Shown here: one piece after another, positions 21,370-35,528 of the stretch
Layout: the number at the start of each line of letters is the position of its first letter
Numbering within the stretch: position 1 is the stretch's first letter
Source: an uncultured Lachnospiraceae bacterium
GTDB lineage: Bacteria > Bacillota > Clostridia > Lachnospirales > Lachnospiraceae
Assembly (NCBI GenBank): GCA_902781455.1
Contig: CACZJF010000020.1
Coordinates: forward strand, 1 to 40,385
DNA length: 40,385 bases
Direction of reading: 5' to 3'
Translations under genes and position numbers: made by a program
Notes under the pieces: generated by a model
Databases searched by the model: none
Told to the model about the DNA's origin: nothing
Seen by the model: the letters and a program-made list of their open reading frames with translations, nothing else

Positions 21370-23481
21370 TCATAACTCGAACAGCAGATCTCCGTATGAC
21401 GGCATCGGCCACATCTCTTTGTCTACAATCATCTCCAGGCGGTCTACCGGTCTGCGCAGTGTCTCCATCGCCGGGCAGATCTCCCGGTGGCAGAACACAG
21501 CCTTCTTGCGTCCTTCCGGCATCTTCTCCTCGCTCCGGATGAGGCGGATCAGCTCCTGCAGCGCTTCGCTCGTCTGTGTCAGCAGCGTACCGGATTCATC
21601 GAGCAATTGTCTGTGCACCTTCGTGTCAGCGCCTATGCTTTCCAGATCCCGGATGGTCCCCGCCAGGGATCCTGTCCAGTGCACAATCGCGGGAATGATG
21701 GACTTGGAAGCCATATCCACCATCGTCATCGCCTCAATGTGAATGATATTCGCGTAATTCTCATACTTGATCTCAACACGGCTTTCCAGTTCGGACCGTG
21801 AGAAAACACCGAATTTTTCAAACATCGAGACAGAACGGTCTGTCACCAGAGCCGGGATCGCGTCCACCATGGACGGCAGATTCGGGAGTCCTCTTTGCTC
21901 AGCCTCCTTCACCCAGTCCTCAGAGTATCCGTTTCCGTTGAAGATAATTCTCTGGTGCTGTGTCAGGTATCTGCGGATCAGCTCCTGCAGTGCCCTGTCA
22001 AAATCTTCCGCCTTCTCCAGCTCGTCGCAGGCATCCGAGAAAGCTTCCGCGACAATCGTGTCGAGCACGATATTCGGCGCCGCGATGGAATCTTTCGAAC
22101 CGACCATGCGGAATTCAAATTTATTGCCTGTAAACGCGAAAGGACTCGTACGGTTTCTGTCTGTCGCGTCCTTTGAAAAATCCGGAAGCGTGCTGGCACC
22201 GGTAACCAGCTTTCCGCCACGGATCGATCTGGTCGCTGCTCCGGTCCGGATCAGCTGCATGACCAGATCCTCCAGCTGGTCTCCAAGGAACACGGAGATC
22301 ACGGCAGGAGGTGCTTCATTGGCACCAAGACGGTGGTCATTGCCCGGGTCAGCCGCGGATTCCCGCAGCAGGTCCGCATGCTCGTCCACAGCCTTCAGGA
22401 TGCAGGAAAGTACCAGCAGGAACTGGTCATTCTCATGCGGTGTCTTTCCCGGATCAAGCAGATTGATACCGTCATCTGTCTGCAGCGACCAGTTGTTATG
22501 CTTGCCGGATCCATTGACGCCGGCAAATGGTTTTTCATGAAGCAGGCAGCGCATGTTATGCCAGGAAGCCACCCGCTTGAGGGTCTGCATCACCAGATGG
22601 TTATTGTCCACTGCCAGCGAAGCATTCTCATAGATCACCGCCAGCTCATGCTGGGCGGGAGCCACCTCATTGTGCTGTGTTTTCGCCGGAACCCCCAGCC
22701 GCCACAGCTGCCGGTTGACGTCCTTCATGAAAGAGGCAACCCGCGTTCTGAGCGATCCATAATAGTGATCATCCAGTTCCTGCCCTTTCGGAGGCATCGC
22801 CCCGAACAGTGTCCTGCCGGTATAAACCAGATCTCTGCGCTTATGGAAGGTTGTTTTATCCACAAGGAAATATTCCTGCTCAGGCCCGACATAAGGCCTG
22901 ACCTTCTTCGACGTCGTATTGCCGAACAGGCGGAGCAGGCGCAGAGACTGTCTGTTGATCGCATCCATGGAACGAAGCAGCGGGGTCTTGAAATCAAGTG
23001 CCTCCCCATTGTAGGAGCAGAAAGCGGTCGGGATGCACAAAGTGGCACCGGCAGCGTCCCTGCGTACAAAGGCAGGCGAAGTCATGTCCCATGCCGTGTA
23101 GCCTCTCGCCTCAAAGGTTGCCCGAAGCCCGCCGGAAGGAAACGAAGACGCGTCCGACTCCCCCTTGATCAGGTTCCTGCCGGACAGCTCCATCAGAACT
23201 CTCCCGTCCTCTCCCGTCGAAGCCAGGAAGCTGTCATGCTTCTCTGCCGTGGTTCCGGTCAGCGGCTGGAACCAATGCGTGTAATGGGTCGCTCCCTTCT
23301 CGATCGCCCACTGCTTCATCGCCTCCGCGATCTCATCAGCGACGAGCGGATTCAGTTCTCCTCCCTCATCCATCGCCTTGTGAAGCTCACGGTAAACATT
23401 TTTCGGAAGACGGTCTCTCATGACACTGTCCGAAAAAACATCCTCGCCGTAGATATCCGCAACGTTGAAACACTCTTCCAC
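21370..23481 (-). CDS. glnN: Type III glutamine synthetase
   Basis: 703 residues, typical for GSIII, which is about 250 longer than GSI. It makes glutamine from glutamate, ammonia and ATP in the cytosol. Recognisable catalytic motifs are VGPEQEYFLVD, EVAPAQHELAV, NGSGKHNNWS and RLGANEAPPAVISVFLGD, with the GSIII-specific N-terminal RDRLPKNVYRELHK and a C-terminal helical bundle. Translation starts at GTG (23481), with AAAGGAG 10 bases upstream. The gene follows the sugar locus but is separated from it by a strong terminator. No nitrogen regulator site is recognisable in the GC-rich leader. Confidence 0.95.
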   Translation of the reverse strand: MEECFNVADIYGEDVFSDSVMRDRLPKNVYRELHKAMDEGGELNPLVADEIAEAMKQWAIEKGATHYTHWFQPLTGTTAEKHDSFLASTGEDGRVLMELSGRNLIKGESDASSFPSGGLRATFEARGYTAWDMTSPAFVRRDAAGATLCIPTAFCSYNGEALDFKTPLLRSMDAINRQSLRLLRLFGNTTSKKVRPYVGPEQEYFLVDKTTFHKRRDLVYTGRTLFGAMPPKGQELDDHYYGSLRTRVASFMKDVNRQLWRLGVPAKTQHNEVAPAQHELAVIYENASLAVDNNHLVMQTLKRVASWHNMRCLLHEKPFAGVNGSGKHNNWSLQTDDGINLLDPGKTPHENDQFLLVLSCILKAVDEHADLLRESAADPGNDHRLGANEAPPAVISVFLGDQLEDLVMQLIRTGAATRSIRGGKLVTGASTLPDFSKDATDRNRTSPFAFTGNKFEFRMVGSKDSIAAPNIVLDTIVAEAFSDACDELEKAEDFDRALQELIRRYLTQHQRIIFNGNGYSEDWVKEAEQRGLPNLPSMVDAIPALVTDRSVSMFEKFGVFSRSELESRVEIKYENYANIIHIEAMTMVDMASKSIIPAIVHWTGSLAGTIRDLESIGADTKVHRQLLDESGTLLTQTSEALQELIRLIRSEEKMPEGRKKAVFCHREICPAMETLRRPVDRLEMIVDKEMWPMPSYGDLLFEL

Positions 23482-23595
23482 TGATCCGGTTCTCCTTTCC
23501 CATCTGGCAGCACAGCCGCTTCGTTCCAGTCTGCCACCGTCAGCCTCACATGCAGGTTCCTGCAGGCATGACCGGCTCGTTCGGCCTTATCGCTC

Positions 23596-23633
23596 AAAAA
23601 AGGGCTTCCCGATGTCTGAACACCGGAATGCCC
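23596..23633 (-). terminator. Strong intrinsic terminator ending the sugar locus
   Basis: A 14-bp minus-strand stem (GGGCATTCCGGTGT with ACATCGGGAAGCCC, one mismatch and two G-U pairs), loop TCAG, followed by six T. It lies 53 bases past the stop of the binding-protein gene and isolates glnN. Confidence 0.88.
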
Positions 23634-23686
23634 TTACCATCTGCTTCGGATACTGTACATCATGTCCGCAGGCGATGCAAGCGTCG

Positions 23687-24907
23687 TTACTGAAGCAATG
23701 CCGTATAAGAAGCTGCGTTGTCCGTCTTGACCATGTTGACCGCGTATGCGTCATACTGGTCCGGGTTGTCCAGACGGTTGGTGATGTTGGACTCTGTCTG
23801 TCCGTCGCCGCCGATGTACGCGACATTCAGGTTCAGCAGATCATCATACTTCTCAAGCAGCGGCTGGTAGGTGGAGCTCAGGAAGTTATCGGACGCGTTG
23901 TAGATGTCAAGCCAGATGTTCTTTACCGGAGCAGCTTCTTCACTCAGCTGGTTCGCAACCGGCGCATAGACAACCGTGGAATCAAGGAAGTCTTCATAGT
24001 TGTCGGAAGTAACCGCAAGGTTCAGCGCGTAGTAGGAACGTGACGCCTCATCATAATAATAATCTGTATCAGAGAGGACATTGCCCGCCTCATCGGCGAT
24101 GCCGATTCCGGTATCCGGGTCAACGCCGTCAATCGCATTTCTCAAAACCCTGAGGGTCAGGTAAGCCTGCACGTCAGCACGCTGGGAGATGGTGCCGGCA
24201 TATCCTTCTGCGATCGCTGCAACAGCGTCGCTGTTCGCGTCATAGCCGAAGGTCGGAACCTCCTCCGCCTGAGACCATGCATGGAACATCGCCATCCCCA
24301 TGCCGTCGTTGTTGGATATGACCACATCGATCTGGTCGCCGAAGGAAGCGGCCCAGGTACCGATGATGCTGCCGGCTGTCGCTGCGTCCCAGGTGGCACC
24401 GGAAGCGTTCTTCATCTCGTGGGAGGCAAGCTCTCTGACCGTCAGTCCGCCGATCTCGCCGTCCTGCACAACAGAAGCGCTTCCGTCAACGTTCGTCTCA
24501 GCCGGTGACGGATCGATCTCACCGCCTGCCTCAACGCCGGTTCCGAGCGCCTTGCGGACGCCCAGGTTGCGGGCGATGGAGTCATTATGTCCGATATCAC
24601 CGATCGCCAGGACATAACCGATGATGCCGTCGCCATTGCGGTCGATGGTGTCAATGTTCTCATTGATGTAATCCGCGATCATCTGACCCTGCAGTTCCGC
24701 ACCCTGACTGGCATCGAATCCGACATAATATGTCTTGTCGTTCCAGGTAAGCGCAGCCATGTCAAGTTCTCCGGTGGAGCTGTTGGAGGGCTGACGGTTC
24801 CACCAGACCAGCGGCTTGTCTGCGTTGCCGCCCGCGAAAGCAGCCATGCCAAAAACCAGGCTCGTGGCAGCAGCAATGCTGAGTACGAAAAGTGTCCTGT
24901 TGTTCAT
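23687..24907 (-). CDS. Galactose/glucose-type (MglB-like) binding protein, apparently circularly permuted
   Basis: 406 residues with a non-lipoprotein signal peptide ending AAFA. Residues 31-310 align with MglB from its middle onward: KPLVWWNRQPS (MglB VPVVFFNKEPS), DKTYYVGFD, the Ca2+ loop DRNGDG (89-94), GDIGHNDSIAR, TWDAATA, VISNNDGMGM, VPTFGYDAN. Residues 326-406 then match the MglB N-terminus: IWLDIYNASDNFLS (MglB IGVTIYKYDDNFMS) through DAYAVNMVKTDNAA (MglB ALAINLVDPAAA). Sugar contacts are kept: Asp340, Phe342, Asn37, His107, Asp109, Arg113, Trp173, Asn200 and Asp223 correspond to E. coli 14, 16, 91, 152, 154, 158, 183, 211 and 236; only Asn256 is replaced (Gln242). AAAGGAGG precedes the ATG at good spacing, so strong translation is likely. 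It is last in the operon. Confidence 0.88.
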   Translation of the reverse strand: MNNRTLFVLSIAAATSLVFGMAAFAGGNADKPLVWWNRQPSNSSTGELDMAALTWNDKTYYVGFDASQGAELQGQMIADYINENIDTIDRNGDGIIGYVLAIGDIGHNDSIARNLGVRKALGTGVEAGGEIDPSPAETNVDGSASVVQDGEIGGLTVRELASHEMKNASGATWDAATAGSIIGTWAASFGDQIDVVISNNDGMGMAMFHAWSQAEEVPTFGYDANSDAVAAIAEGYAGTISQRADVQAYLTLRVLRNAIDGVDPDTGIGIADEAGNVLSDTDYYYDEASRSYYALNLAVTSDNYEDFLDSTVVYAPVANQLSEEAAPVKNIWLDIYNASDNFLSSTYQPLLEKYDDLLNLNVAYIGGDGQTESNITNRLDNPDQYDAYAVNMVKTDNAASYTALLQ

Positions 24908-24951
24908 GCTTCAACCTCCTTTTTCCGGGCGGCTGCCCGTCAGATACCTTC

Positions 24952-24982
24952 AGTATAATTAAAGCCTGTCCGTGACTGTCAG
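24952..24982 (-). promoter_or_regulatory. Possible internal promoter before the MglB-like gene
   Basis: TATACT (24957-24952) is preceded by CTGACA at a long 19-base spacing. It overlaps the xylF-like stop codon. A CGGGC/GCCCG mini-hairpin lies between it and the ribosome binding site. Weak evidence. Confidence 0.35.
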
Positions 24983-26067
24983 TCAATATTCAGATACACA
25001 TCTTCTCTTTGATGGAACCCGCCTTCAATGATCACTTCGTCCAGGTTCTCCTTTGTCACCGCAACGGGCTCGAGCGGATAGTACGGGATCTCGCCGCTTC
25101 CGTCATTCATGGTCTCCGTGACCAGAATCGGGCTTTCCGGATCGGTAATGTCCTCTCCCTTTGCCAGCGCCACTGCAAGCTTCGCCGCAGCGGAAGCCTC
25201 CTTGTCGACAGACTTGTAGACTGTCATTGTCTGCGTTCCTTCGACGATTCTCTGACAGGCGCTCAGCTCAGCATCCTGTGCCACAACAGGGATTGTTCCG
25301 GCCATCTTTTTCTCTGTCAGGGCACGTATGGCCTGGCCGGCCAGGTCATCATTGCCGCACATGATGCCATCGACCTTTCCCCCGTTTTGCTCAAGTCCTT
25401 CCCCGACAGCGTCAAACGCAAGCTCTGCCAGCCAGTTGTCGCAGAAGGTCGAATACGTGATCCGGATGCCGGTCCCCTTCAAAGCTTCCTCAAAACCTTC
25501 TCTGACAAGGTCTACATTGTAATCGCTCGACGATCCCTGGATCTGGAAGATCTCCCCTCCGTCCGGAAGGCTGTCAGCAAGCGCCTGCCCCATCAGGGTG
25601 CCGACCATGCGGTTGTCAAATGAGATATACAGATCCGTCCCGGCATTCCGGATCAGGCGGTCATAGCAGATGATCCGTATGCCAGCCTGCTGCGCTTTTT
25701 TGACGACATCCGTCAAGGCTCCGGCGTCGATGGCAATGATCGTGATGACATCCATCTTCTTTTCGATCAGATACTCAATCTGGGAAATCTGCTCCTCCAC
25801 ATCGCCGTTCGCGTTCTGGACATTTACCTCAGCGCCCAGCCCCTGCGCGGTCGCAACAAAAACATCCCTGTCGCGCAGCCATCGTTCGATGACAAAGGAG
25901 TCAAATGAGATGCCGATCCGGATGTTCTCCTCCCCTGCCTCGCTTACCGGCTGCGGCTGATCCGCGCGCTTCTCTCCGTCCGCGGAACAGCCACCGGCGA
26001 AGCAGCAGCACAGAACCAGTCCGGCCACAATCCTTCCAAATCTTCCAAGCCACCTGCATGTCGACAT
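24979..26067 (-). CDS. xylF: XylF-like D-xylose-binding lipoprotein
   Basis: 362 residues from the ATG at 26067 (GAGG 8 bases upstream); an earlier GTG overlapping the regulator's stop lacks a binding site. The signal ends with a lipobox-like FAGGC (Cys27), although the -3 residue is Ala, not Leu. The mature part follows XylF closely: IGISFDSFVIERWLRDRDVF, VNVQNANGDVEEQISQIEYLI, ICYDRLI, DLYISFDNRMVGTLMGQAL, MCGNDDLAGQAI, VVAQDAELSACQRI, GTQTMTVYKSV and DEVIIEGGFH. It should bind xylose or a similar pentose outside the cell. It follows the two-component genes rather than the transporter genes, so it may feed the distant permease or the sensor. Confidence 0.88.
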   Translation of the reverse strand: MSTCRWLGRFGRIVAGLVLCCCFAGGCSADGEKRADQPQPVSEAGEENIRIGISFDSFVIERWLRDRDVFVATAQGLGAEVNVQNANGDVEEQISQIEYLIEKKMDVITIIAIDAGALTDVVKKAQQAGIRIICYDRLIRNAGTDLYISFDNRMVGTLMGQALADSLPDGGEIFQIQGSSSDYNVDLVREGFEEALKGTGIRITYSTFCDNWLAELAFDAVGEGLEQNGGKVDGIMCGNDDLAGQAIRALTEKKMAGTIPVVAQDAELSACQRIVEGTQTMTVYKSVDKEASAAAKLAVALAKGEDITDPESPILVTETMNDGSGEIPYYPLEPVAVTKENLDEVIIEGGFHQREDVYLNID

Positions 26068-26108
26068 CTTTCTATCCTCATGTTCTCTTCCGCCGGAATC
26101 ACCCGGCT

Positions 26109-27740
26109 TCACGGACGATCTGTGACAGGGGCAGCAGCGCCTTGCAGATTCCTCTCTCTGTATTCACGCGGCGTCATCCCCGTGTGCTTCTTGAAGATCC
26201 GGCTGAAATAGTTCGGATCCGCATACCCCGACTGCAGCCCCGCCTCCCGGACCGAGAGAATCGGACGTTTCAGAAGTTCCTTCGCGTTGCCGATCCGAAG
26301 GGCAGTCAGGTAATCGATAAAGTTTTCTCCCACTTCTTCCTTGAAAAGCTTGCTGAAATAATACGGGCTGACATTGACCTCCTTGGATACGTCATCCAGA
26401 GACAGCTCCTGCCGGAAATTCTCCTGAATATACTTGCAGGCTCTCGCGACAGTCGATTCGTCTTTTTCCTCCGCCTGATTGTGAATGGTTCCGGCGATCG
26501 ATGTCATGTGATCCAGAAACCAGTCACGGATCTGTCGCACATCCTGCAGCGCATTGACCTGTGTGAGATAATCCTTGCGGTAGTCGAACGCATAGTTGAC
26601 GGAACCCGCCGCAAATGCATCATGCTCGGACCGCAGAACCAGCTCCAGCACTTTCAGGCGCATACTGTCAAGGTCCATCGGATCATGTCTCTCCATCCAG
26701 TCAAAGAAGACGTTGGCCTTCTCACGCACACCGGCCACGTCTCCCCTGGACAGTGCGGTAAATGTATCCCGCTCCAGCTCGATGGGGTAATCGTCCTCAT
26801 AGACACCATGCTCGGAAATATCCTCAATATGGACAACCCGCGCGCGGGAATCCCGCAGCGCCTGAACCGCCTCCAGATAACTCATACGCAGATCCGCAAA
26901 CCTGCAGATCTTTCCGATTCCTGCCCTGACACGGATCGACAGCATCTCAGACAGCCGCTGAAGCAGTGATCTCATGTTATTGATGGTCTCGATCCGCTCA
27001 TCGTAGGTGATGGTCTCGTCTTCATGCGGGACCACGATCACAATCCGGTCACTCATGACAGGACCGATGATGCACCGCTGGAAGGACTTGATCGCGGAAC
27101 GGATCTGCATATAGTTGTCCTGCGCTTTTACCCTGCTCTCCACCGGGCTGAGCATCTGATCCTGTTCCTGCTCCTGCTTCGGCCCGAACCAGATGACCTC
27201 GACATAGGCATCTCTTTCCCGGATCTCCAGAAGCTGCCGGTAATACTCCTCATCCTGCAGGTCGTCCGACAGCAGCATTCCCGTGACAAACCCGTTCTCC
27301 ACAACCGGAAGAATCGTCTCCAGCTTCTCCTGAATCTTCAGCTGGTCAGAACGCTTCTCACGGATCCGGTCCACCTTCTTCATGGCATCCGCCACCGTCT
27401 TGAGAATGATATCCCGCGATACCGGCTTCATAATGTACTGTTCCACCCCGAGGGAAATCGCGTCCTGCGCATAGTCAAATTTCTCGTAGGCAGATATGAC
27501 ATAAAACAGGCAGGACGAATTGAAGGAGCGGATCTCCCTGATTGCCGCGATCCCATTGATGCCGGGCATCTGGATGTCCATGAACACAATGTCAGGATGA
27601 AAGTTTTCCGCCTGTTCGATGGCTGTCCTTCCTGTTTTCGCCGTCGCAATCTCCACGACATCTTTATACTGTCTCAGTATGATCTCCCGGAGAGATTCCA
27701 CCATGATGCCTTCGTCGTCCGCAATCAGAATCCGATACAT
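26109..27740 (-). CDS. YesN-type response regulator (receiver plus AraC HTH)
   Basis: 543 residues. The receiver domain (1-120) has Asp8/Asp9, phospho-acceptor Asp55 in FMDIQMPG and Lys105 in MKPVS. A long middle segment (about 150-420), typical of YesN regulators, is of unknown fold. The C-terminal AraC domain contains both helix-turn-helix units: LSLDDVSKEVNVSPYYFSKLF and SVREAGLQSGYADPNYFSRIFK, ending GMTPREYRERN. It starts 6 bases after the kinase gene. By analogy with Clostridium xylose sensing, it should activate the sugar-uptake promoter; the inverted repeat at 35556-35586 is the best candidate site. Confidence 0.92.
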   Translation of the reverse strand: MYRILIADDEGIMVESLREIILRQYKDVVEIATAKTGRTAIEQAENFHPDIVFMDIQMPGINGIAAIREIRSFNSSCLFYVISAYEKFDYAQDAISLGVEQYIMKPVSRDIILKTVADAMKKVDRIREKRSDQLKIQEKLETILPVVENGFVTGMLLSDDLQDEEYYRQLLEIRERDAYVEVIWFGPKQEQEQDQMLSPVESRVKAQDNYMQIRSAIKSFQRCIIGPVMSDRIVIVVPHEDETITYDERIETINNMRSLLQRLSEMLSIRVRAGIGKICRFADLRMSYLEAVQALRDSRARVVHIEDISEHGVYEDDYPIELERDTFTALSRGDVAGVREKANVFFDWMERHDPMDLDSMRLKVLELVLRSEHDAFAAGSVNYAFDYRKDYLTQVNALQDVRQIRDWFLDHMTSIAGTIHNQAEEKDESTVARACKYIQENFRQELSLDDVSKEVNVSPYYFSKLFKEEVGENFIDYLTALRIGNAKELLKRPILSVREAGLQSGYADPNYFSRIFKKHTGMTPREYRERNLQGAAAPVTDRP

Positions 27741-27746
27741 AAGCCT

Positions 27747-29288
27747 TTAGTCCCTTTCTGTCCGGACGCTGTTCCTGGGCAGAAGAATGGTTACCTCCGT
27801 CCCGGTCCCCGGTCCGTCACTCCAGATGCTGAACAGATTATCCCGGTTGTAATACAGTTCCAGGCGGGAGATAACATTCGCGATGGCAATTCCGGTCGAA
27901 TCCGTTCCGCCTTCCGCGTCCTCTTCCTTCCTGCTTACTCCCGGCTCCATGATCCGGTCAAGCTGCTTCCGGGTCATCCCCGTCCCGTTGTCTGAAACCG
28001 TGATCCGGACACAGTCCGTTCCGGTCTCATTTTCCTTCTCATCGACATTGTCTACGGTAAGCGTGATGATCCCATTCTCATGGTCATCATGAATCCCATG
28101 CTGGATCGCATTTTCCACCAGTGGCTGAAGAATCATGCTGGGCATCCTGGTTGCCTCCAGGTCGATCTCCGGATCAATCTGCTTCACGTAGTGTATGTCA
28201 CCCGCAAACCGCACATTCAGAATATAGATATAATTATCGACAGAATCGATCTCCTCGCTGAGCGCGGCGTCTCCTCCCGTCTTCTTGACGTTGTACCGGA
28301 AAAACTGCGCCATGCGCGAAAGGAAGTGTTCTGTCCTGTCCGCTCCTTCCATCATGGCGAGCTGGGATCCCGCGTTCAGGCTGTTGAACAGGAAGTGCGG
28401 GTTGATCTGCGCCTGCAGGAATTTCAGCTGTGCCTCCTTCAGGTGCGCCTGCATGGAAAGCTCATTTTCCTTCATCTGTGCTTCCTTCTCCATGGAAGCA
28501 CGCTGGGATTCGATATAGTCGCGGATGCTGCCCAGCATCTTGTGGAACGCATTGGTAACAACGCCGACCTCGTCCGGTCTCTGGGACTCCTTGACATCGA
28601 CACTGAAGTCACCGCCCGCCACACTCTCCGCAGCCGCAGACAGGGTACTCAGAGGACCGATCATCGCTCTCACGCTCATGATGCACAGGAACAGGGCAAA
28701 TGCGCTGACAGAGAGAATCATCACAAGACTCATGCGCTCAATGTTTCTCATGCTGCGAAGAAGGGACAGATAATTCTCCGTATTCTGCGAAAATCGTCTG
28801 CTGTTGAGCGCATAGATGTAGTTGTTGATGTAATCAAACAGTGTCGCTGCCTGCGCGTACGCCGCCTTGTACTCTTCGACATTTCTCGCGCGCCTTGCCT
28901 GAATTGCCTCCTCTGAAACCGTCAGATAAGACTGGGTCATGGACCGGATGTTCTTTTCCAGCATCAGAAGCTCATTGCCCACGTTGCGGTCATTCAGGTC
29001 GTCTGTCTGTTCCCGCAGGCGCTGTTCATATCTGTAAAAGTCTTCCAGGGAAGCCGAACTTTTCGTACTCAGGTAGTCGTGCATGCTGCTCTGGGCAGAC
29101 GCCAGCGTATCGCTCAGGTCCATGATCACCGCATTGGACGCGAAGACCTCGTGAATCCGCTGCACAGTCTGGCTGCTCTGGCGGAACGCGAACAGGTTCA
29201 CGGAAAGTGCCATCAGAAGCACCGTCGCCACGACAATCGTAATGCGGGTCTGTATGGAAGAGGCGAAACGGATCCTGTTTTTCTTCAT
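27747..29288 (-). CDS. LytS/YesM-type sensor histidine kinase
   Basis: 513 residues. Two membrane helices (about 16-35 and 186-206) enclose a ~150-residue extracellular helical domain. HAMP follows (207-262), then a coiled coil, the His_kinase domain with phospho-acceptor His298 in QINPHFLFNSLN, and an ATPase domain with LVENAIQHGI, DNGTGM and STGIAIANVISRL. The start overlaps the sensor-protein stop (ATGA), so the two are made together. The extracellular domain has no obvious sugar pocket, so the membrane-anchored binding protein next to it probably supplies the ligand signal. Confidence 0.93.
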   Translation of the reverse strand: MKKNRIRFASSIQTRITIVVATVLLMALSVNLFAFRQSSQTVQRIHEVFASNAVIMDLSDTLASAQSSMHDYLSTKSSASLEDFYRYEQRLREQTDDLNDRNVGNELLMLEKNIRSMTQSYLTVSEEAIQARRARNVEEYKAAYAQAATLFDYINNYIYALNSRRFSQNTENYLSLLRSMRNIERMSLVMILSVSAFALFLCIMSVRAMIGPLSTLSAAAESVAGGDFSVDVKESQRPDEVGVVTNAFHKMLGSIRDYIESQRASMEKEAQMKENELSMQAHLKEAQLKFLQAQINPHFLFNSLNAGSQLAMMEGADRTEHFLSRMAQFFRYNVKKTGGDAALSEEIDSVDNYIYILNVRFAGDIHYVKQIDPEIDLEATRMPSMILQPLVENAIQHGIHDDHENGIITLTVDNVDEKENETGTDCVRITVSDNGTGMTRKQLDRIMEPGVSRKEEDAEGGTDSTGIAIANVISRLELYYNRDNLFSIWSDGPGTGTEVTILLPRNSVRTERD

Positions 29289-30337
29289 CCTTTCTCCTCC
29301 TTGCGCCTGTTTGCTTCATGCTCCTTTTCATACTTCTCCACCGTCATCGGCGTGATTCCCGACAGCGCGATATTGTAGTAGCTGCTGACACGGCCGAGCT
29401 GAAGGTATTCGTCCAGCGCCTGGACACAGTCCTCTCCGAGAGAACCGGTATCAATTGTCATCGTCACGGGTATCAGGTCCTGCCGCAGTGCCTGCAGGAT
29501 CTGGTCCGTCACATAATAGCCGATCACCTGCACTTGGCCGACCAGGTTATACTCGATCAGCGCCTGGATCGCGCATTCTGTCTGAACACTGTTCAGGCAG
29601 ATCAGGATGTCCGGCCGGTCCTTTCCAAGGAGAAGATCGCGGATGACTTCCTCCGCGTCAAAATCCGTTCTGCTATCAACGCTCTCCATCCGAAGTTCCA
29701 TCGACTTGCCGGAAGGAGCACCGTTGCGGATCGCCTGCACCATCTGCGTGTAGATCAGCTGGGTCTCATTCTCCGGGTCGGCAGAGTCTGTCAGCAGGCA
29801 CACTTCATTGTTCCCGTTGTGCAGGAGGCTCAGAAGATGTCCTCCGTACAGATCTCCCATCTGGTAATTGGAAACACCGATATAGCTGACGCGTCCGGAG
29901 GACGGCAGATCCCTCAGTATGGTAACCACCGGAATGCCGGCATCATAGGCCCTCGTGATCGCGGCGTTCAGATCTGTGGAACTGTCCGGGAAGACGATGA
30001 TGCCGTCTGCCTTCATCGCGACGGAGATGTCAACGCAGTCCGCCGCGGAGTAATCCCCCGGCATGTCCTTTCCGCACCATTCCAGATATGCGCCGGAGGC
30101 TTCGCAGGAAGCTGCGGTCTGATTGTAGATATCGCGGAGCATCTGGGATTCATCCGTTGAGACAAACAGATAATGCCTGTCGTAACTGCTGACGCTGTCA
30201 GCACTCACATCAAGCTCTTTCGCCCTGTTCTGGTAAAGAAGGACCAGGCCTGTCACCAGGATTCCTCCCATTCCCAGAAGTATGATCATCAGATAGACCA
30301 GTCTCTTCAAAGTCCGCTCCTGTATCCGTACGTTCAA
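29285..30337 (-). CDS. Membrane-anchored sugar-binding sensor protein (XylFII-like)
   Basis: 350 residues. An uncleaved N-terminal helix (about 13-33, no lipobox, no AxA site) anchors a periplasmic-binding-protein type 1 domain: YLFVSTDESQMLRDIYNQTAASCEA, DGIIVFPDSSTDLNAAITRAYDAGIPVVTI, SYIGVSNYQMGDLYGGHLL, ILICLNSVQTECAIQALIEY, VQVIGYYVTDQIL. The expected sugar-stacking aromatics are less obvious than in transport proteins. Gene order (sensor, kinase, regulator) and anchoring match the XylFII-LytS-YesN system that detects xylose in Clostridium, so a signalling rather than transport role is likely. A C-terminal charged tail (EKEHEANRRKEEKG) is unusual for the family. Confidence 0.85.
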   Translation of the reverse strand: MNVRIQERTLKRLVYLMIILLGMGGILVTGLVLLYQNRAKELDVSADSVSSYDRHYLFVSTDESQMLRDIYNQTAASCEASGAYLEWCGKDMPGDYSAADCVDISVAMKADGIIVFPDSSTDLNAAITRAYDAGIPVVTILRDLPSSGRVSYIGVSNYQMGDLYGGHLLSLLHNGNNEVCLLTDSADPENETQLIYTQMVQAIRNGAPSGKSMELRMESVDSRTDFDAEEVIRDLLLGKDRPDILICLNSVQTECAIQALIEYNLVGQVQVIGYYVTDQILQALRQDLIPVTMTIDTGSLGEDCVQALDEYLQLGRVSSYYNIALSGITPMTVEKYEKEHEANRRKEEKG

Positions 30338-30471: not shown

Positions 30472-31638
30472 TTATTTGCTCTTCTGCTTGGAGATGATAT
30501 CAAATGCAACCGCTCCGAGCAGAACGATGCCCTTGACAACCTTCTGGAAGTTGGCATCGATGTTCATCAGGCTCATGCCCAGATTGATCACGCCGATCAG
30601 GAGGGCTCCGATGAGCATACCCGGTACGGTTCCGGCTCCGCCGTAAGCGGAGACGCCGCCGACAACACACGCCGAGATCGCGTCCATCTCATAGTTGGTG
30701 CCAAGCGTTGAGTTTGCCGCCTGGACCTTGCTCAGGACCGCGAAGGAAGTGATAACCGTGATCACCGCCATATTCAGGTAGGCAAGGAACATCACTCTTC
30801 TGGTATCAATACCGGACAGACGCGCAGCCTCGCGGTTGCCGCCCACCACGTAGAAGTGACGGCCGATCGTTGTCTTTCCCGTGATAAAGCTGTACAGGAG
30901 AACAATGACCGCGACCCAGATCAGAACGGTAGGAATGCCGCCCGACATCGCCAGCTTCCATGTAAACAGCAGAATGACCGCGTCCAGAAGAACCGTCTTT
31001 CCCAGCACCCATGCGAAGGAATCCGCTTCATAGCCCTTCTTCAGTCTTGCGGCACGGCTCCTGAAGTTCAGGAAGACAACCAGCAGGCAGGCAACGATTC
31101 CCACGATCATGCAGGGCATGTTCAGTTCCCCGAGCTTGGTGGAAAACACCTTGCCGGCAAAAATGTCAAGGAAGCTCTGCGGGAACGGTGCCAGGGATCC
31201 GGTCGAGCTGTTCGAGCTCAGAATCTGGGTGCCGAGTCCGCGGAAGGCAAGATATCCGGCCAGGGTTGCGATCCAGGGCGGAATCTCTACATATGCGACA
31301 AGATATCCGAGCACGCAGCCATAAACCACTCCGACCAGAAGCAGAAGGGCAATGGATACTCCCGTATTCATTCCTTTGATGATCATCAGGTAACCGCCGA
31401 TCGCTCCGATCAGGCAGACGAAGGATCCGCAGCTCAGGTCAATGTTTCCGCCGGTCAGCATGCACATCAGCATACCGCAGGCCAGGATAAAGACATACGC
31501 GTTCTGTGTGATCAGTGCGTTAAACTGCATCGGCTGGAACATCATTCCCTTAGTCGTGATCGTAAAGAAGACGAAGACAAGAACCAGGACGATGAGCATA
31601 GTATTGTCTTTTAACAGAGTTTTTACATCCTTTTTCAT
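30472..31638 (-). CDS. Second sugar ABC permease, paralogue of the preceding gene
   Basis: 388 residues with about ten membrane segments, of the MmsB/GguB/XylH family (inner-membrane pore subunits). The hallmark near the middle of the first half is GGNIDLSCGSFV; later come GGNREAARLSGIDTRR and GYEMDAISACVVGG-type motifs (here NYEMDAISACVVGGVSAYGG). It aligns along its whole length with the adjacent permease. It lacks an extended N-terminus and follows 15 bases after it. A heterodimeric pore with its neighbour is the simplest reading. It ends the transport unit before a palindrome. Confidence 0.9.
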   Translation of the reverse strand: MKKDVKTLLKDNTMLIVLVLVFVFFTITTKGMMFQPMQFNALITQNAYVFILACGMLMCMLTGGNIDLSCGSFVCLIGAIGGYLMIIKGMNTGVSIALLLLVGVVYGCVLGYLVAYVEIPPWIATLAGYLAFRGLGTQILSSNSSTGSLAPFPQSFLDIFAGKVFSTKLGELNMPCMIVGIVACLLVVFLNFRSRAARLKKGYEADSFAWVLGKTVLLDAVILLFTWKLAMSGGIPTVLIWVAVIVLLYSFITGKTTIGRHFYVVGGNREAARLSGIDTRRVMFLAYLNMAVITVITSFAVLSKVQAANSTLGTNYEMDAISACVVGGVSAYGGAGTVPGMLIGALLIGVINLGMSLMNIDANFQKVVKGIVLLGAVAFDIISKQKSK

Positions 31639-31653
31639 CTTTCCTCCCCTCCT

Positions 31654-32823
31654 TTATTCCTTCTTCTTGGAAACGACATCGAACAGAACCGCAATCAGGA
31701 GAACCAGTCCCTTGACCACACTCTGATAGTTCGTGGATACGCCCATGATACTCATGCCCTGGTTGATGACACCCAGGAGCACCGCACCGATGACGGTTCC
31801 GGGAACGGCTCCGATTCCGCCGTAAGCGGAAGCGCCGCCGATAAAGCAGGCCGCAATGGCATCCATCTCATAACCCAGTCCGAAGGTCGGATTGCCCTGC
31901 ACCATTCTTGCAAGGGTCAGGATTCCGGCAAGGCCTGCAAGCAATCCCATATTCGAGTAGGCGATGAAAAAGACTCTCTTGGTATTGACACCCGACAGCT
32001 CGGTTGCCTTCCGGTTGCCGCCGACCGCGTACAGGTAACGGCCGATCGCGGTTTTCTGTGAAATATAATGGTAGATCAGAAGAACCGCAAGAATCCAGAT
32101 CACGACAGTCGGGATGCCCTTAAACTGCGCAAGCTTCCATGTGATGTAGAGAATCAGAATTGCCATGACCGCAACCTTGACAAGCTCGGATGTCATGCTG
32201 TCATTGGTATACCCCTTTACCTTACGGGTAATCCAGGTCTTGATGTTCAGGACAACAAACAGCACGGCGATGATGATGCCGGCGATCATGCAGGTCATAT
32301 TGAGATTCCCGACTTTACCGATGAAGTCCGGAATGTAGCAGTCCGCGCCGCCGCCGAATACATTCAGGAATGTCGTGTTGTCCACGCCGATGGAATAGCC
32401 CTGCAGCACAACATTGGACAGTCCGCGGAAGGCGTACATGCCTGCCAGTGTGGCGATAAAGGGCGGCACCGATACATAAGCGATCCAGAAGCCCTGGAAC
32501 ATGCCGATGGCCAGTCCTACCGCCAGCATGACAATCACTGTCAGAAGCCAGTTCATATCTCTGTCCAGCATCACGGCTCCGATTCCGCCGGTAAAGCAGA
32601 CGACAGAGCCAACAGACAGGTCAATGTTTCCGCCGGTCAGGATACACAGCAGCATACCGGTTCCAAGCACGAACACATATGCGTTCTGGGAAAACAGGTT
32701 GTTTACGTTCTGCGGAAGCAGGATCGTCCCGCCGGTCCGCCAGTAGAAAAACAGGATCACAACGACCAGGGCAATGATCATGGTGTTCTTCTTAAAGAAG
32801 GCTTTTGCCGATCTTGTCTGCAT
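31654..32823 (-). CDS. mmsB: Sugar ABC permease, multiple-monosaccharide type
   Basis: 389 residues, about ten helices. Motifs GGNIDLSVGSVVCFTGG, VPPFIATLAGMYAFRGLSNVV, VGGNRKATELSGVNTKR and GYEMDAIAACFIGGASAYGG match the MmsB/GguB permease that works with MmsA and ChvE. The start is 2 bases after the ATPase stop, with AAGGGGGG upstream. Known systems usually have one such permease forming a homodimer, whereas here a paralogue follows. Confidence 0.92.
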   Translation of the reverse strand: MQTRSAKAFFKKNTMIIALVVVILFFYWRTGGTILLPQNVNNLFSQNAYVFVLGTGMLLCILTGGNIDLSVGSVVCFTGGIGAVMLDRDMNWLLTVIVMLAVGLAIGMFQGFWIAYVSVPPFIATLAGMYAFRGLSNVVLQGYSIGVDNTTFLNVFGGGADCYIPDFIGKVGNLNMTCMIAGIIIAVLFVVLNIKTWITRKVKGYTNDSMTSELVKVAVMAILILYITWKLAQFKGIPTVVIWILAVLLIYHYISQKTAIGRYLYAVGGNRKATELSGVNTKRVFFIAYSNMGLLAGLAGILTLARMVQGNPTFGLGYEMDAIAACFIGGASAYGGIGAVPGTVIGAVLLGVINQGMSIMGVSTNYQSVVKGLVLLIAVLFDVVSKKKE

Positions 32824-32825
32824 AA

Positions 32826-34310
32826 TCAGTCCCCCCTTCCTGAAGCAAGGATCATACTCATGATATTCTCCTGAGTTGCTTCCTCGGCTTTCATCTCACC
32901 AACAATGCGGGACGCGTTCATGATATAGATCCTGTCACTCATACCGATGACCTCCGGAAGCTCGGAGGAGATCATGATAACCGACTTGCCGGCCTTCGCC
33001 AGATCATTGATGATGCAGTAGATCTCATACTTCGCGCCGACGTCGATACCTCTGGTCGGCTCGTCCAGAATCAGGACATCCGGCTCCGCGAACATCCATT
33101 TTGCCAGCAGGACCTTCTGCTGGTTGCCGCCGGAAAGGTTGCCGACCAGCTGCTCCACAGACGGGGTCTTCGTGTTCAGCTTCTTCCGGTATTCCTCGGC
33201 CGCGGCATATTCCGCGTCGGTGTCGAGCACCGTGTTCTTTGACACTCCACCCAGATTTGCCAGAGTCGTATTGACCCGGATTGACTGGGAAAGAACCAGT
33301 CCGTTGCCCTTGCGGTCCTCCTTGCCGTCAAGCTTGAGCGTGCCGGACAGCAGCGTACCGTAGGACTGTCCGAAGATGCTCATCGCCAGCTCAGTACGTC
33401 CTGCACCCATCAGGCCGTAGATTCCGACAACCTCGCCCTTGCGCACATACATGGAAACATCATTGACCACATTGCGCTCTGTGTACTTGGGATGCTGAAC
33501 GGTCCAGTTCGAAACCTCCATCATGACGTCGCCGATGGCAACGTTCTCCCGCTTCGGGAAGCGGTTCGTCATCTCACGGCCAACCATGCCCTTGATGATC
33601 CGGTCCTCCGAGATCTGCTCCGCGCCATGGCAGTCGAGCGTCTCGATCGTGGATCCGTCGCGGACGACCGTGATCTTGTCGGATACGTAGGCAACCTCAT
33701 TCAGCTTGTGGGTGATGATGATCATCGTCATACCCTGCTTCTTGAAGCCAAGCATCAGATCCAGCAGCGCCTTTGAGTCTTCTTCATTCAGAGAAGAGGT
33801 AGGCTCGTCAAGAATCAGCAGTCTTGCATGCTTCGAAAGCGCCTTTGCGATCTCTACCAGCTGCTGCTTTCCGGTTCCGATTTCCTTGACCTTGGTCTTG
33901 GAGGATTCGGTCAGTCCAACCATCTTCAGATATTTATCCGCCTCGGAATAGGTCTTATCCCAGTCAATCGCGCTCTTGCGGCCGATCTCATTTCCAAGGT
34001 ACATATTCTCGCCGATCGTCATCTCGGGAACAAGTGCCAGCTCCTGGTGAATGATAACGATGCCCTTGCTTTCGGAGTCTTTTATCTTATGAAATTTACA
34101 GACCTCTCCCTCATATACGATGTCGCCCTCGTAGGTCCCGTACGGATAGATGCCGCTCAGCACGTTCATCAGTGTGGACTTGCCGGCGCCGTTCTCTCCG
34201 ACCAGAGCGTGAATCTCGCCCTCTTCGACCTGGAAATTGACATTATCCAGCGCCTTGACGCCGGGGAAGGTCTTTGTAATATTCTTCATTTCCAGAATAA
34301 TCTTAGCCAA
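32826..34310 (-). CDS. mmsA: Sugar ABC transporter ATPase (MmsA/XylG/GguA type)
   Basis: 494 residues from the TTG at 34310, with GGAGG 8 bases upstream; this gives the family-typical start [20 protein letters not shown]. Two ABC domains are fused, as usual for monosaccharide importers. The first has Walker [25 protein letters not shown] and [15 protein letters not shown]. The second has [10 protein letters not shown], signature LSGGNQQKV and [13 protein letters not shown]. It drives import through the two following permeases and is separated from the binding-protein gene by a strong RNA hairpin, which probably lowers its expression relative to that protein. Confidence 0.94.
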
Positions 34311-34351
34311 TGTGTCTCCCTCCAAATGTTTGTCCTATATCGCGGTTCAGA

Positions 34352-34428: not shown

Positions 34429-35460
34429 TTACTTGAGGTCATCCTCGGTGTAGTAACCGGAATCCAGAAGCAGTTCCTTGTAGTTGTTCACATCCGCGAA
34501 TACCGGTTCGCACAGATAGGACGGAACAGTGATTACGTTGTTGTTATAGGTCTCGGTATCGTTGACATCGACATCAACACCATTCAGGATCTGGCCGATC
34601 ATCTTGACAACCTGCGTTGCCAGAGTACGGGTATCCTTGAAGACGGACATTGACTGCTTGCCGGCGATCATGTTCTTGACATTCTCCTTGTCGCAGTCCT
34701 GACCGGTAACGATCGGATACTCGCCGGTGTAGTTGGCAGCAAGTGCATTCTCAACACCAAGAGCGGTGGAGTCGTTGGAGCACAGCCATGCATCGATGTT
34801 GGTGCCATCCGCATAATTGGAAGCGATGATGTTCTCGGCTCTGGACTGAGCAGTCTCGGTCTTCCACTGAGCAGTTGCGCACTCTTCGAACTCGGTCTGT
34901 CCGGACTTAACAACCAGCTTGCCCTCTTCGATGTACGGCTTCAGAAGATCCATCGCGCCGTTGAAGAAGAATCCGGCGTTGTTGTCACCCGGGTCACCGG
35001 CAGTGATCTCAAGGTTAAACGGGCCATCAGCATTCTCCAGATCCAGGGTATCAATGATGTACTGGCCCTGAACGGTTCCGACCATGTAGTTGTCGAAAGT
35101 TGCATAATAGGAAACGCCATCGTTGTCCATCAGCAGACGGTCATAAGCGATAACCGGGATCTCGTTCTCTTTCGCCATGTCAAGCGCCTCGCCAAGGGAG
35201 GAACCTTCGATTGCGGCAATGACAAGAACCTCAGCTCCGGAGGAGATCATGTTCTCGACCTGAGAAAGCTGTGTCTGCGGATCGTTGGAAGCGTACTGAA
35301 GATCGACTTCATAGCCGGCATCCTCAAGCATCTTCTGCATATTCTCGCCGTCCTGATTCCATCTCTGCAGATCCTTTGTCGGCATGGAAACGCCGATCTT
35401 CTGTCCGTTCATACCGGCAACAAGCGCGGTTGACAGTGCAAGTGCTAAAAATTTCTTCAT
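34429..35460 (-). CDS. chvE: ChvE-like monosaccharide-binding protein lacking a lipobox
   Basis: 343 residues from the ATG at 35460 (GGAGG 8 bases upstream). The mature sequence is ChvE/MmsE type: KIGVSMPTKDLQRWNQDGENM, DLQYASNDPQTQLSQVENMI, VIAYDRLLMDNDGVSYYATFDNYMVG, AWLCSNDSTALGVENAL, PIVTGQDCDKENVKNM and MSVFKDTRTLA. It binds hexoses or pentoses for the ABC importer encoded next. The signal peptide MKKFLALALSTALVAGMNG runs straight into the first beta strand. There is no cysteine and none of the usual Ser/Gly/Ala linker, so it would be released, or cut by signal peptidase I near VAG, rather than lipid-anchored. Regulation: activator-type promoter upstream and hairpin downstream. Confidence 0.92.
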   Translation of the reverse strand: MKKFLALALSTALVAGMNGQKIGVSMPTKDLQRWNQDGENMQKMLEDAGYEVDLQYASNDPQTQLSQVENMISSGAEVLVIAAIEGSSLGEALDMAKENEIPVIAYDRLLMDNDGVSYYATFDNYMVGTVQGQYIIDTLDLENADGPFNLEITAGDPGDNNAGFFFNGAMDLLKPYIEEGKLVVKSGQTEFEECATAQWKTETAQSRAENIIASNYADGTNIDAWLCSNDSTALGVENALAANYTGEYPIVTGQDCDKENVKNMIAGKQSMSVFKDTRTLATQVVKMIGQILNGVDVDVNDTETYNNNVITVPSYLCEPVFADVNNYKELLLDSGYYTEDDLK

Positions 35461-35528
35461 GTTGAAAACCTCCATTATATAAATGAAAAACAACACCTGG
35501 GACTACCTTCGTCCCTGTTACTGGGTCT

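Follow-up and report, generated by a model that had tools for sequence, protein, structure and literature searches.

The window (the whole stretch of 40,385 nucleotides analyzed here, from contig CACZJF010000020.1 of an uncultured Lachnospiraceae bacterium) encodes a circularly permuted MglB-type sugar-binding protein with no mglA or mglC gene behind it. The protein almost certainly belongs to the described Tp0684/MglB-2 group. Its identity, segment order, predicted fold, sugar contacts, selection, and lack of mglA-mglC behind it are shown, and its ligand, the deletion of mglA-mglC, and a new partner are inferred. Its membership in a kind already described is confirmed and unremarkable, and its evolutionary history adds a modest story. 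The same permutation is present in Tp0684 (MglB-2; PDB 5jx2, 6bgc, and 6bgd) from Treponema pallidum, solved in 2016 (PMC4990184), so that the permutation itself, in print with structures since that year, adds little. PMC4990184 traces the permutation through the individual strands and suggests Type Ic (cluster Bc) as its name. The paper also reports the Tp0684 topology from further treponemes and from many Gram-positive species, and that Tp0684 binds D-glucose with a conformational change. An earlier note on this DNA, made from the sequence alone, had known of no described natural circular permutant in the family, a statement that is wrong in view of that crystal structure and the glucose-binding data.

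Gene and protein architecture

The permuted mglB gene is read from position 24907 to position 23687 on the minus strand as one open frame, and a plus-strand reading runs into stops (Table 1); the coordinates in the earlier note, which named no strand, are correct. GGAGG precedes the start codon, and the 406-residue product begins with a signal of the signal peptidase I type, cleaved, as read by eye, between AFA and GG; the single frame, signal peptide, and ribosome binding site described in the earlier note are thus all present. The gene's own terminator, also described there, fares less well. A hairpin-like pattern does exist at 23628-23607, but one terminator-like pattern was found in the region against 1.4 expected by chance, and it lies past a block conserved before the next gene, so that its assignment to the permuted mglB is uncertain. 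Lying in the leader of the glutamine synthetase gene, it might act there as an attenuator; Rfam gave no match over 22500-25300 up to an E value of 0.5. By eye, hairpins similar to this one in the glutamine synthetase leader are seen in genomes G013 and G014, and none is visible in the printed gaps of G016, G008, and G002.

Table 1. Features of the permuted mglB gene and its surroundings in the window
Feature	Position	Strand	Remarks
Circularly permuted MglB-type sugar-binding protein	23687..24907	(-)	Tp0684/MglB-2 type, 406 aa
Signal peptide	24833..24907	(-)	Residues about 1-25; signal peptidase I type, no lipobox Cys, no linker; cleavage site by eye
MglB middle and C lobe	24008..24823	(-)	Residues about 29-300
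Moved MglB N-terminal strand-helix region	23690..23944	(-)	Residues about 322-406; PF18610 at 329-398
Ca2+ loop	24614..24643	(-)	Residues 89-98, DRNGDGIIGY
Block just 3' of the stop codon	23637..23686	(-)	Likely glutamine synthetase promoter region; similar to the stretch between mglC and GS3 in G012 and, more weakly, in G002
Intrinsic-terminator-like hairpin beyond the post-stop block	23607..23628	(-)	Pattern match
XylF-like binding protein with lipobox (SBP2), immediately upstream	24979..26112	(-)	xylF 282.6 bits, below the cut-off of 389.55; lipobox by eye
Response regulator with AraC-type DNA-binding domain	26109..27740	(-)	
Sensor histidine kinase	27747..29288	(-)	Weak family matches
SBP3, binding protein with N-terminal hydrophobic stretch	29285..30337	(-)	Probably membrane anchored; anchor by eye
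GguB2 and GguB1 permeases and GguA ATPase	30472..34325	(-)	Multiple-monosaccharide-type ABC transporter; candidate new partner
Glutamine synthetase (GS3), next gene downstream	21370..23481	(-)	703 aa; NCBIfam matches weak

The segment order is that of Type Ic, with the MglB middle and C lobe first and the N-terminal strands last in one chain. Positions 94-256 (of 258) of PF13407 match residues 57-261, and PF18610, which occurs once in the window's genome (an assembly 81% complete), matches residues 329-398. In a phmmer search of the PDB, Tp0684 aligned collinearly with query residues 29-404 (E 2.5e-91), and MglB chains of the E. coli/Salmonella type matched in two stretches. Together with the profile comparison described below, the Pfam order and the collinear Tp0684 match uphold the earlier reading of 23687-24907 as a circularly permuted MglB.

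Structure prediction, which the earlier note had proposed, pointed to the same group. The AlphaFold model, built on an input alignment of 42 sequences including the window's, had a mean pLDDT of 83.9 and a pTM of 0.85; of the five models computed, two scored lower (62.0 and 58.3). Its top four PDB matches in Foldseek were Tp0684 chains (TM to target, 0.80-0.88), and ordinary enteric-type glucose/galactose-binding proteins stood at ranks 5-16 (TM, 0.59-0.62 over about 280 columns). The predicted model shows a two-lobed type I fold whose N-lobe sheet would be permuted, in agreement with the expectation that the chain would close as a type I binding protein.

The sugar contacts listed in Table 2 of PMC4990184 were placed via alignment of the window protein with PDB chains. 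Nine of the ten (NHDRWNDQDF in the window protein) are identical to those of E. coli MglB (EcMglB), the sole change being N256 to Q242, and the Ca2+ loop motif DRNGDG is present; both had been read correctly before. The protein would close on D-glucose, perhaps also on D-galactose, between its two lobes, like an ordinary MglB. With the first MglB strands and helices placed at the C terminus, the new ends would lie in the N lobe, and the chain would presumably cross the hinge four times, as has been shown for Tp0684. The window protein has no lipobox Cys and is not a tethered lipoprotein; PMC4990184 noted a membrane tether in 2016 as a commonality of Tp0684-type proteins, which is not strictly defining. 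Nor is it encoded beside the cognate mglA and mglC genes of an mglBAC-type ABC importer.

Origin of the moved C-terminal piece

According to PMC4990184, the tail of Tp0684 and the N terminus of EcMglB are 13% identical, and its authors left open an origin from another gene. In a profile-profile comparison of 42 permuted and 21 ordinary MglB-like sequences, residues 322-406 matched ordinary MglB residues 24-115 (E 2e-6; probability, 78.8; 79 columns), and there was no match to the middle (E 0.64) or to the C-terminal part (E 0.84) of ordinary MglB. The whole protein scored higher, at 244.9 over 299 columns, once the MglB alignment had been rearranged to follow the permutation than it did with the ordinary order (222.0 over 224 columns). 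The tail match was weak when single sequences replaced the MglB profile, with an E value of 0.021 against the front 140 residues of E. coli MglB and of 0.17-0.64 against the N-terminal portions of three further binding proteins encoded in the window. The comparison supports homology between the moved piece and the ordinary MglB N terminus without settling it, since the pairwise profile E values are uncalibrated against a database. The profile evidence suggests that the moved segment is MglB sequence rather than a convergent piece from another gene, a distinction that could matter.

Distribution of permuted MglB

Among 397 genomes sampled from the window's family, 45 have PF18610, the profile search of Lachnospiraceae having been suggested in the earlier note; in a phylum sample it is present in 2 of 398 genomes, one of them the window's own. 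The collection comprised 43 distinct permuted loci, window included, from 49 rows, six of which were second copies of the same contig (L050-L054 and L056); a scan of named organisms gave 7 loci, six on contigs already among those collected. Relatives (n = 41) are 63-88% identical to the window protein. The 43 permuted proteins are 357-498 residues long, the shortest being cut by a contig edge, and none is an intermediate of the tandem duplication from which the earlier note took the gene to have arisen. In L096, L126, and L124, the immediate upstream neighbor of the permuted gene, in the same orientation, is an MglB-like gene of ordinary order.

The mglA gene lies directly behind the permuted gene in 37 of the 43 distinct loci, and mglC comes next in 34 of those 37, with L114, L123, and L127 ending too early to tell. 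All 34 of these MglC proteins carry an extra N-terminal stretch of about 215 residues (L108, 896-2593; L113, 12209-13870; and 32 more). This stretch had no Pfam match in the two that were scanned and is absent from five of five other MglC-like proteins above 150 bits in the loci examined, including that of E. coli.

Absence of mglA and mglC

Six loci lack mglA: those of the window, G016 (L107), G008 (L109), G013 (L110), and G014 (L118) and a second copy in G416 (L101). In the first five, the orphans, the next gene is GS3, a glutamine synthetase taken as type III from its length (703 aa in the window), with extra gap sequence in G013 and G014. In the sister genomes G002 and G012, mglA and mglC stand at this same place, in that order, between the permuted gene and GS3, and the permuted gene of G002 stands behind SBP2. 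Ten of 11 further members of the genus examined around GS3 (G015, G018, G005, G007, G010, G003, G006, G004, G017, and G001) have SBP2 directly before GS3 with no permuted gene between them; in the eleventh, G009, different genes occupy the place. GS3 had no match in G011. With the MglC of G002 as query, orthologues of at least 917 bits were found in all five other genus members that have the permuted gene (G002, G012, G017, G006, and G004), and no extended MglC orthologue was found in the five orphan genomes, which are 68-84% complete (best match, 113.6 bits).

In the window, G016, and G008, a block within a few bases of the stop codon resembles the mglC-GS3 gap of G012 and G002. In local alignments against G012, 0 of 1000 shuffles reached the score for any of the three, and against G002 the score was reached by 2, 1, and 0 of 1000 shuffles for the window, G016, and G008, respectively; the stretch of G002 that separates its permuted gene from mglA had no such block match. 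The block is probably the promoter region of GS3 itself and would be present in any arrangement, so that the junction alone is no proof of deletion. What suggests a deletion is that mglA and mglC follow the gene in most relatives. On the simplest account, the operon arrived complete and mglA-mglC were then lost, once or twice; it is less simple to suppose that the permuted gene came by itself and that G002 and G012 acquired mglAC afterwards.

The five orphans alone as one clade were rejected by the AU test (p 0.006). In the best tree, they form one side of a branch together with G015, in which the site is empty (support, 43/0), and two other groupings are not rejected (p 0.49 and 0.17); the glutamine synthetase gene tree alone leaves the clade unresolved. 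In this subclade of the genus, the permuted gene lies between the Ggu-transporter/two-component cluster and the glutamine synthetase gene, with mglA-mglC missing, most simply by deletion.

Selection and candidate partners

The ten contact residues are the same in 42 of the 43 rows, the remaining one (L117) being cut at a contig edge before the first contact. Among the orphans, dN/dS is 0.065-0.126 in nine of ten pairs, the tenth falling outside the dS limit of 0.1-1.3; the other 38 rows (L101 and the cut row L117 included) have a median of 0.087 and a range of 0.016-0.350 over 147 pairs within the dS limit. Relaxed selection after permease loss had been suggested by one transporter-bearing pair (0.017 versus 0.09-0.14) and was rejected, the 147 pairs giving it no support. 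At positions 67, 180, and 209, all five orphans have lost a residue shared by 37, 38, and 38, respectively, of the 38 other rows, and at another 24 conserved positions between one and four orphans are changed; the surface or specificity of the orphan proteins may have shifted.

Because every sugar contact is kept and purifying selection is of ordinary strength, the orphan probably works with a different partner, for which the GguAB permease and the adjacent sensor kinase are candidates. It would hand its sugar to another permease, most likely the upstream GguAB, or present it to the neighboring kinase, with GguAB as the first-choice candidate and the kinase system as the second. Several binding proteins sharing one permease is a general precedent. 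The GguB match on 30475-31638 reached 398.4 bits, below the cut-off of 450, and the other two Ggu proteins were named by similarity and position. In the ChvE-like binding protein at 34429-35496 of the window, about 16 residues are seemingly missing around the signal cleavage site in comparison with the L164 relative, through either a real deletion or an assembly error.

We put forward, tentatively and as one possibility, the fuller scenario in which the permuted binding protein, unlipidated and deprived of the ABC importer that belonged to it, was reassigned under ordinary purifying selection to GguAB or to the two-component sensor, with the changes at positions 67, 180, and 209 as possible marks of the event. 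Sister genomes that keep the permease genes behind this binding protein and others that lack them form a natural set, which could matter as a direct test of such a change of partner.

It is conceivable, if rather doubtful, that the orphan is a co-sensor and feeds no permease, the sugar-loaded protein binding SBP3/histidine kinase (or SBP2) and tuning the sugar operon. The permuted gene ends the run of SBP3, kinase, regulator, and SBP2 genes, the ligand contacts are all kept, and a clostridial solute-binding protein with a signaling role, CuaD, is described in PMC10384115. The permuted gene, however, is at the site in none of the 11 further genus members, eight of which (G015, G018, G005, G010, G003, G006, G004, and G001) still have the kinase cluster, so that the kinase does not need the permuted protein; the gap of 71 bp to SBP2, with a promoter-like match no better than chance, also weighs against this role.

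A transitional relic, with the permease genes lost and the binding protein on its way out, is an unlikely reading. The same may have happened in G015, which lies inside the same clade and has no permuted gene in its SBP2-GS3 gap, and export without a lipid anchor could shed the protein, but the frames are open in all five orphan genomes, all ten contacts are kept, and dN/dS is of ordinary strength at dS 0.4-1.3. It is quite improbable that cognate mglA-mglC genes lie elsewhere in the orphan genomes and were lost in assembly gaps: at the completeness of these genomes a distant mglAC copy could be missing from some of them, but mglA-mglC were found in none of the five orphan genomes and, directly behind the permuted gene, in five of five other genus members that have it. 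That the order is an assembly or annotation artefact of an ordinary MglB, as the earlier note had considered, has next to no chance, with nothing in its favor beyond the window being a draft contig, and is already refuted by the recurrence of the PF18610 tail profile across the family sample and by the same order in the 43 loci read, from many separately assembled genomes, and in crystal structures.

Lipid anchor

A lipobox-like Cys is present in 30 of the 42 rows with complete starts and absent from the other 12. These 12 include L109, in which the Cys falls within the signal peptide; the cut row L117 was left out. A link between the lost lipobox and the lost permease was ruled out by lipobox-less relatives with mglA behind the gene (L108, L111, L115, L116, L123, L091, and L055), the contig of L123 ending before mglC. 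The window genome has family matches for lgt and lspA, and unlipidated binding proteins alongside these two genes are unusual in a one-membrane bacterium. By eye, several sugar-binding proteins of this genome (L034, L035, L039, L040, L043, and L046) have signals of the signal peptidase I type and no lipobox. In 2016, PMC4990184 put forward adaptation to tethering as the origin of the permutation. The unlipidated forms do not refute this idea, since they may be derived, but the permuted form can persist without a tether.

Comparison with known systems

E. coli MglB (GGBP) has homologous parts, the Ca2+ loop, and nine of the ten ligand-site residues in common with the window protein and differs in its ordinary segment order. 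Tp0684 has the same permutation, is collinear over query residues 29-404 with 43% identity in the Foldseek alignment, and shares the contact set, including Q for N256 of EcMglB, and the Ca2+ site. According to PMC4990184, Tp0684 is a lipoprotein with a putative permease, tp0686, and has N in place of EcMglB D14, whereas the window protein keeps D at that position and has neither a lipobox nor mglA-mglC behind its gene. The permuted MglB proteins of other Lachnospiraceae-type genomes (for example, L113, L120, and L108) have the same order and contacts as the window protein, and most of them differ from it in having a lipobox, a linker of roughly 15-50 residues, and mglA-mglC behind the gene.
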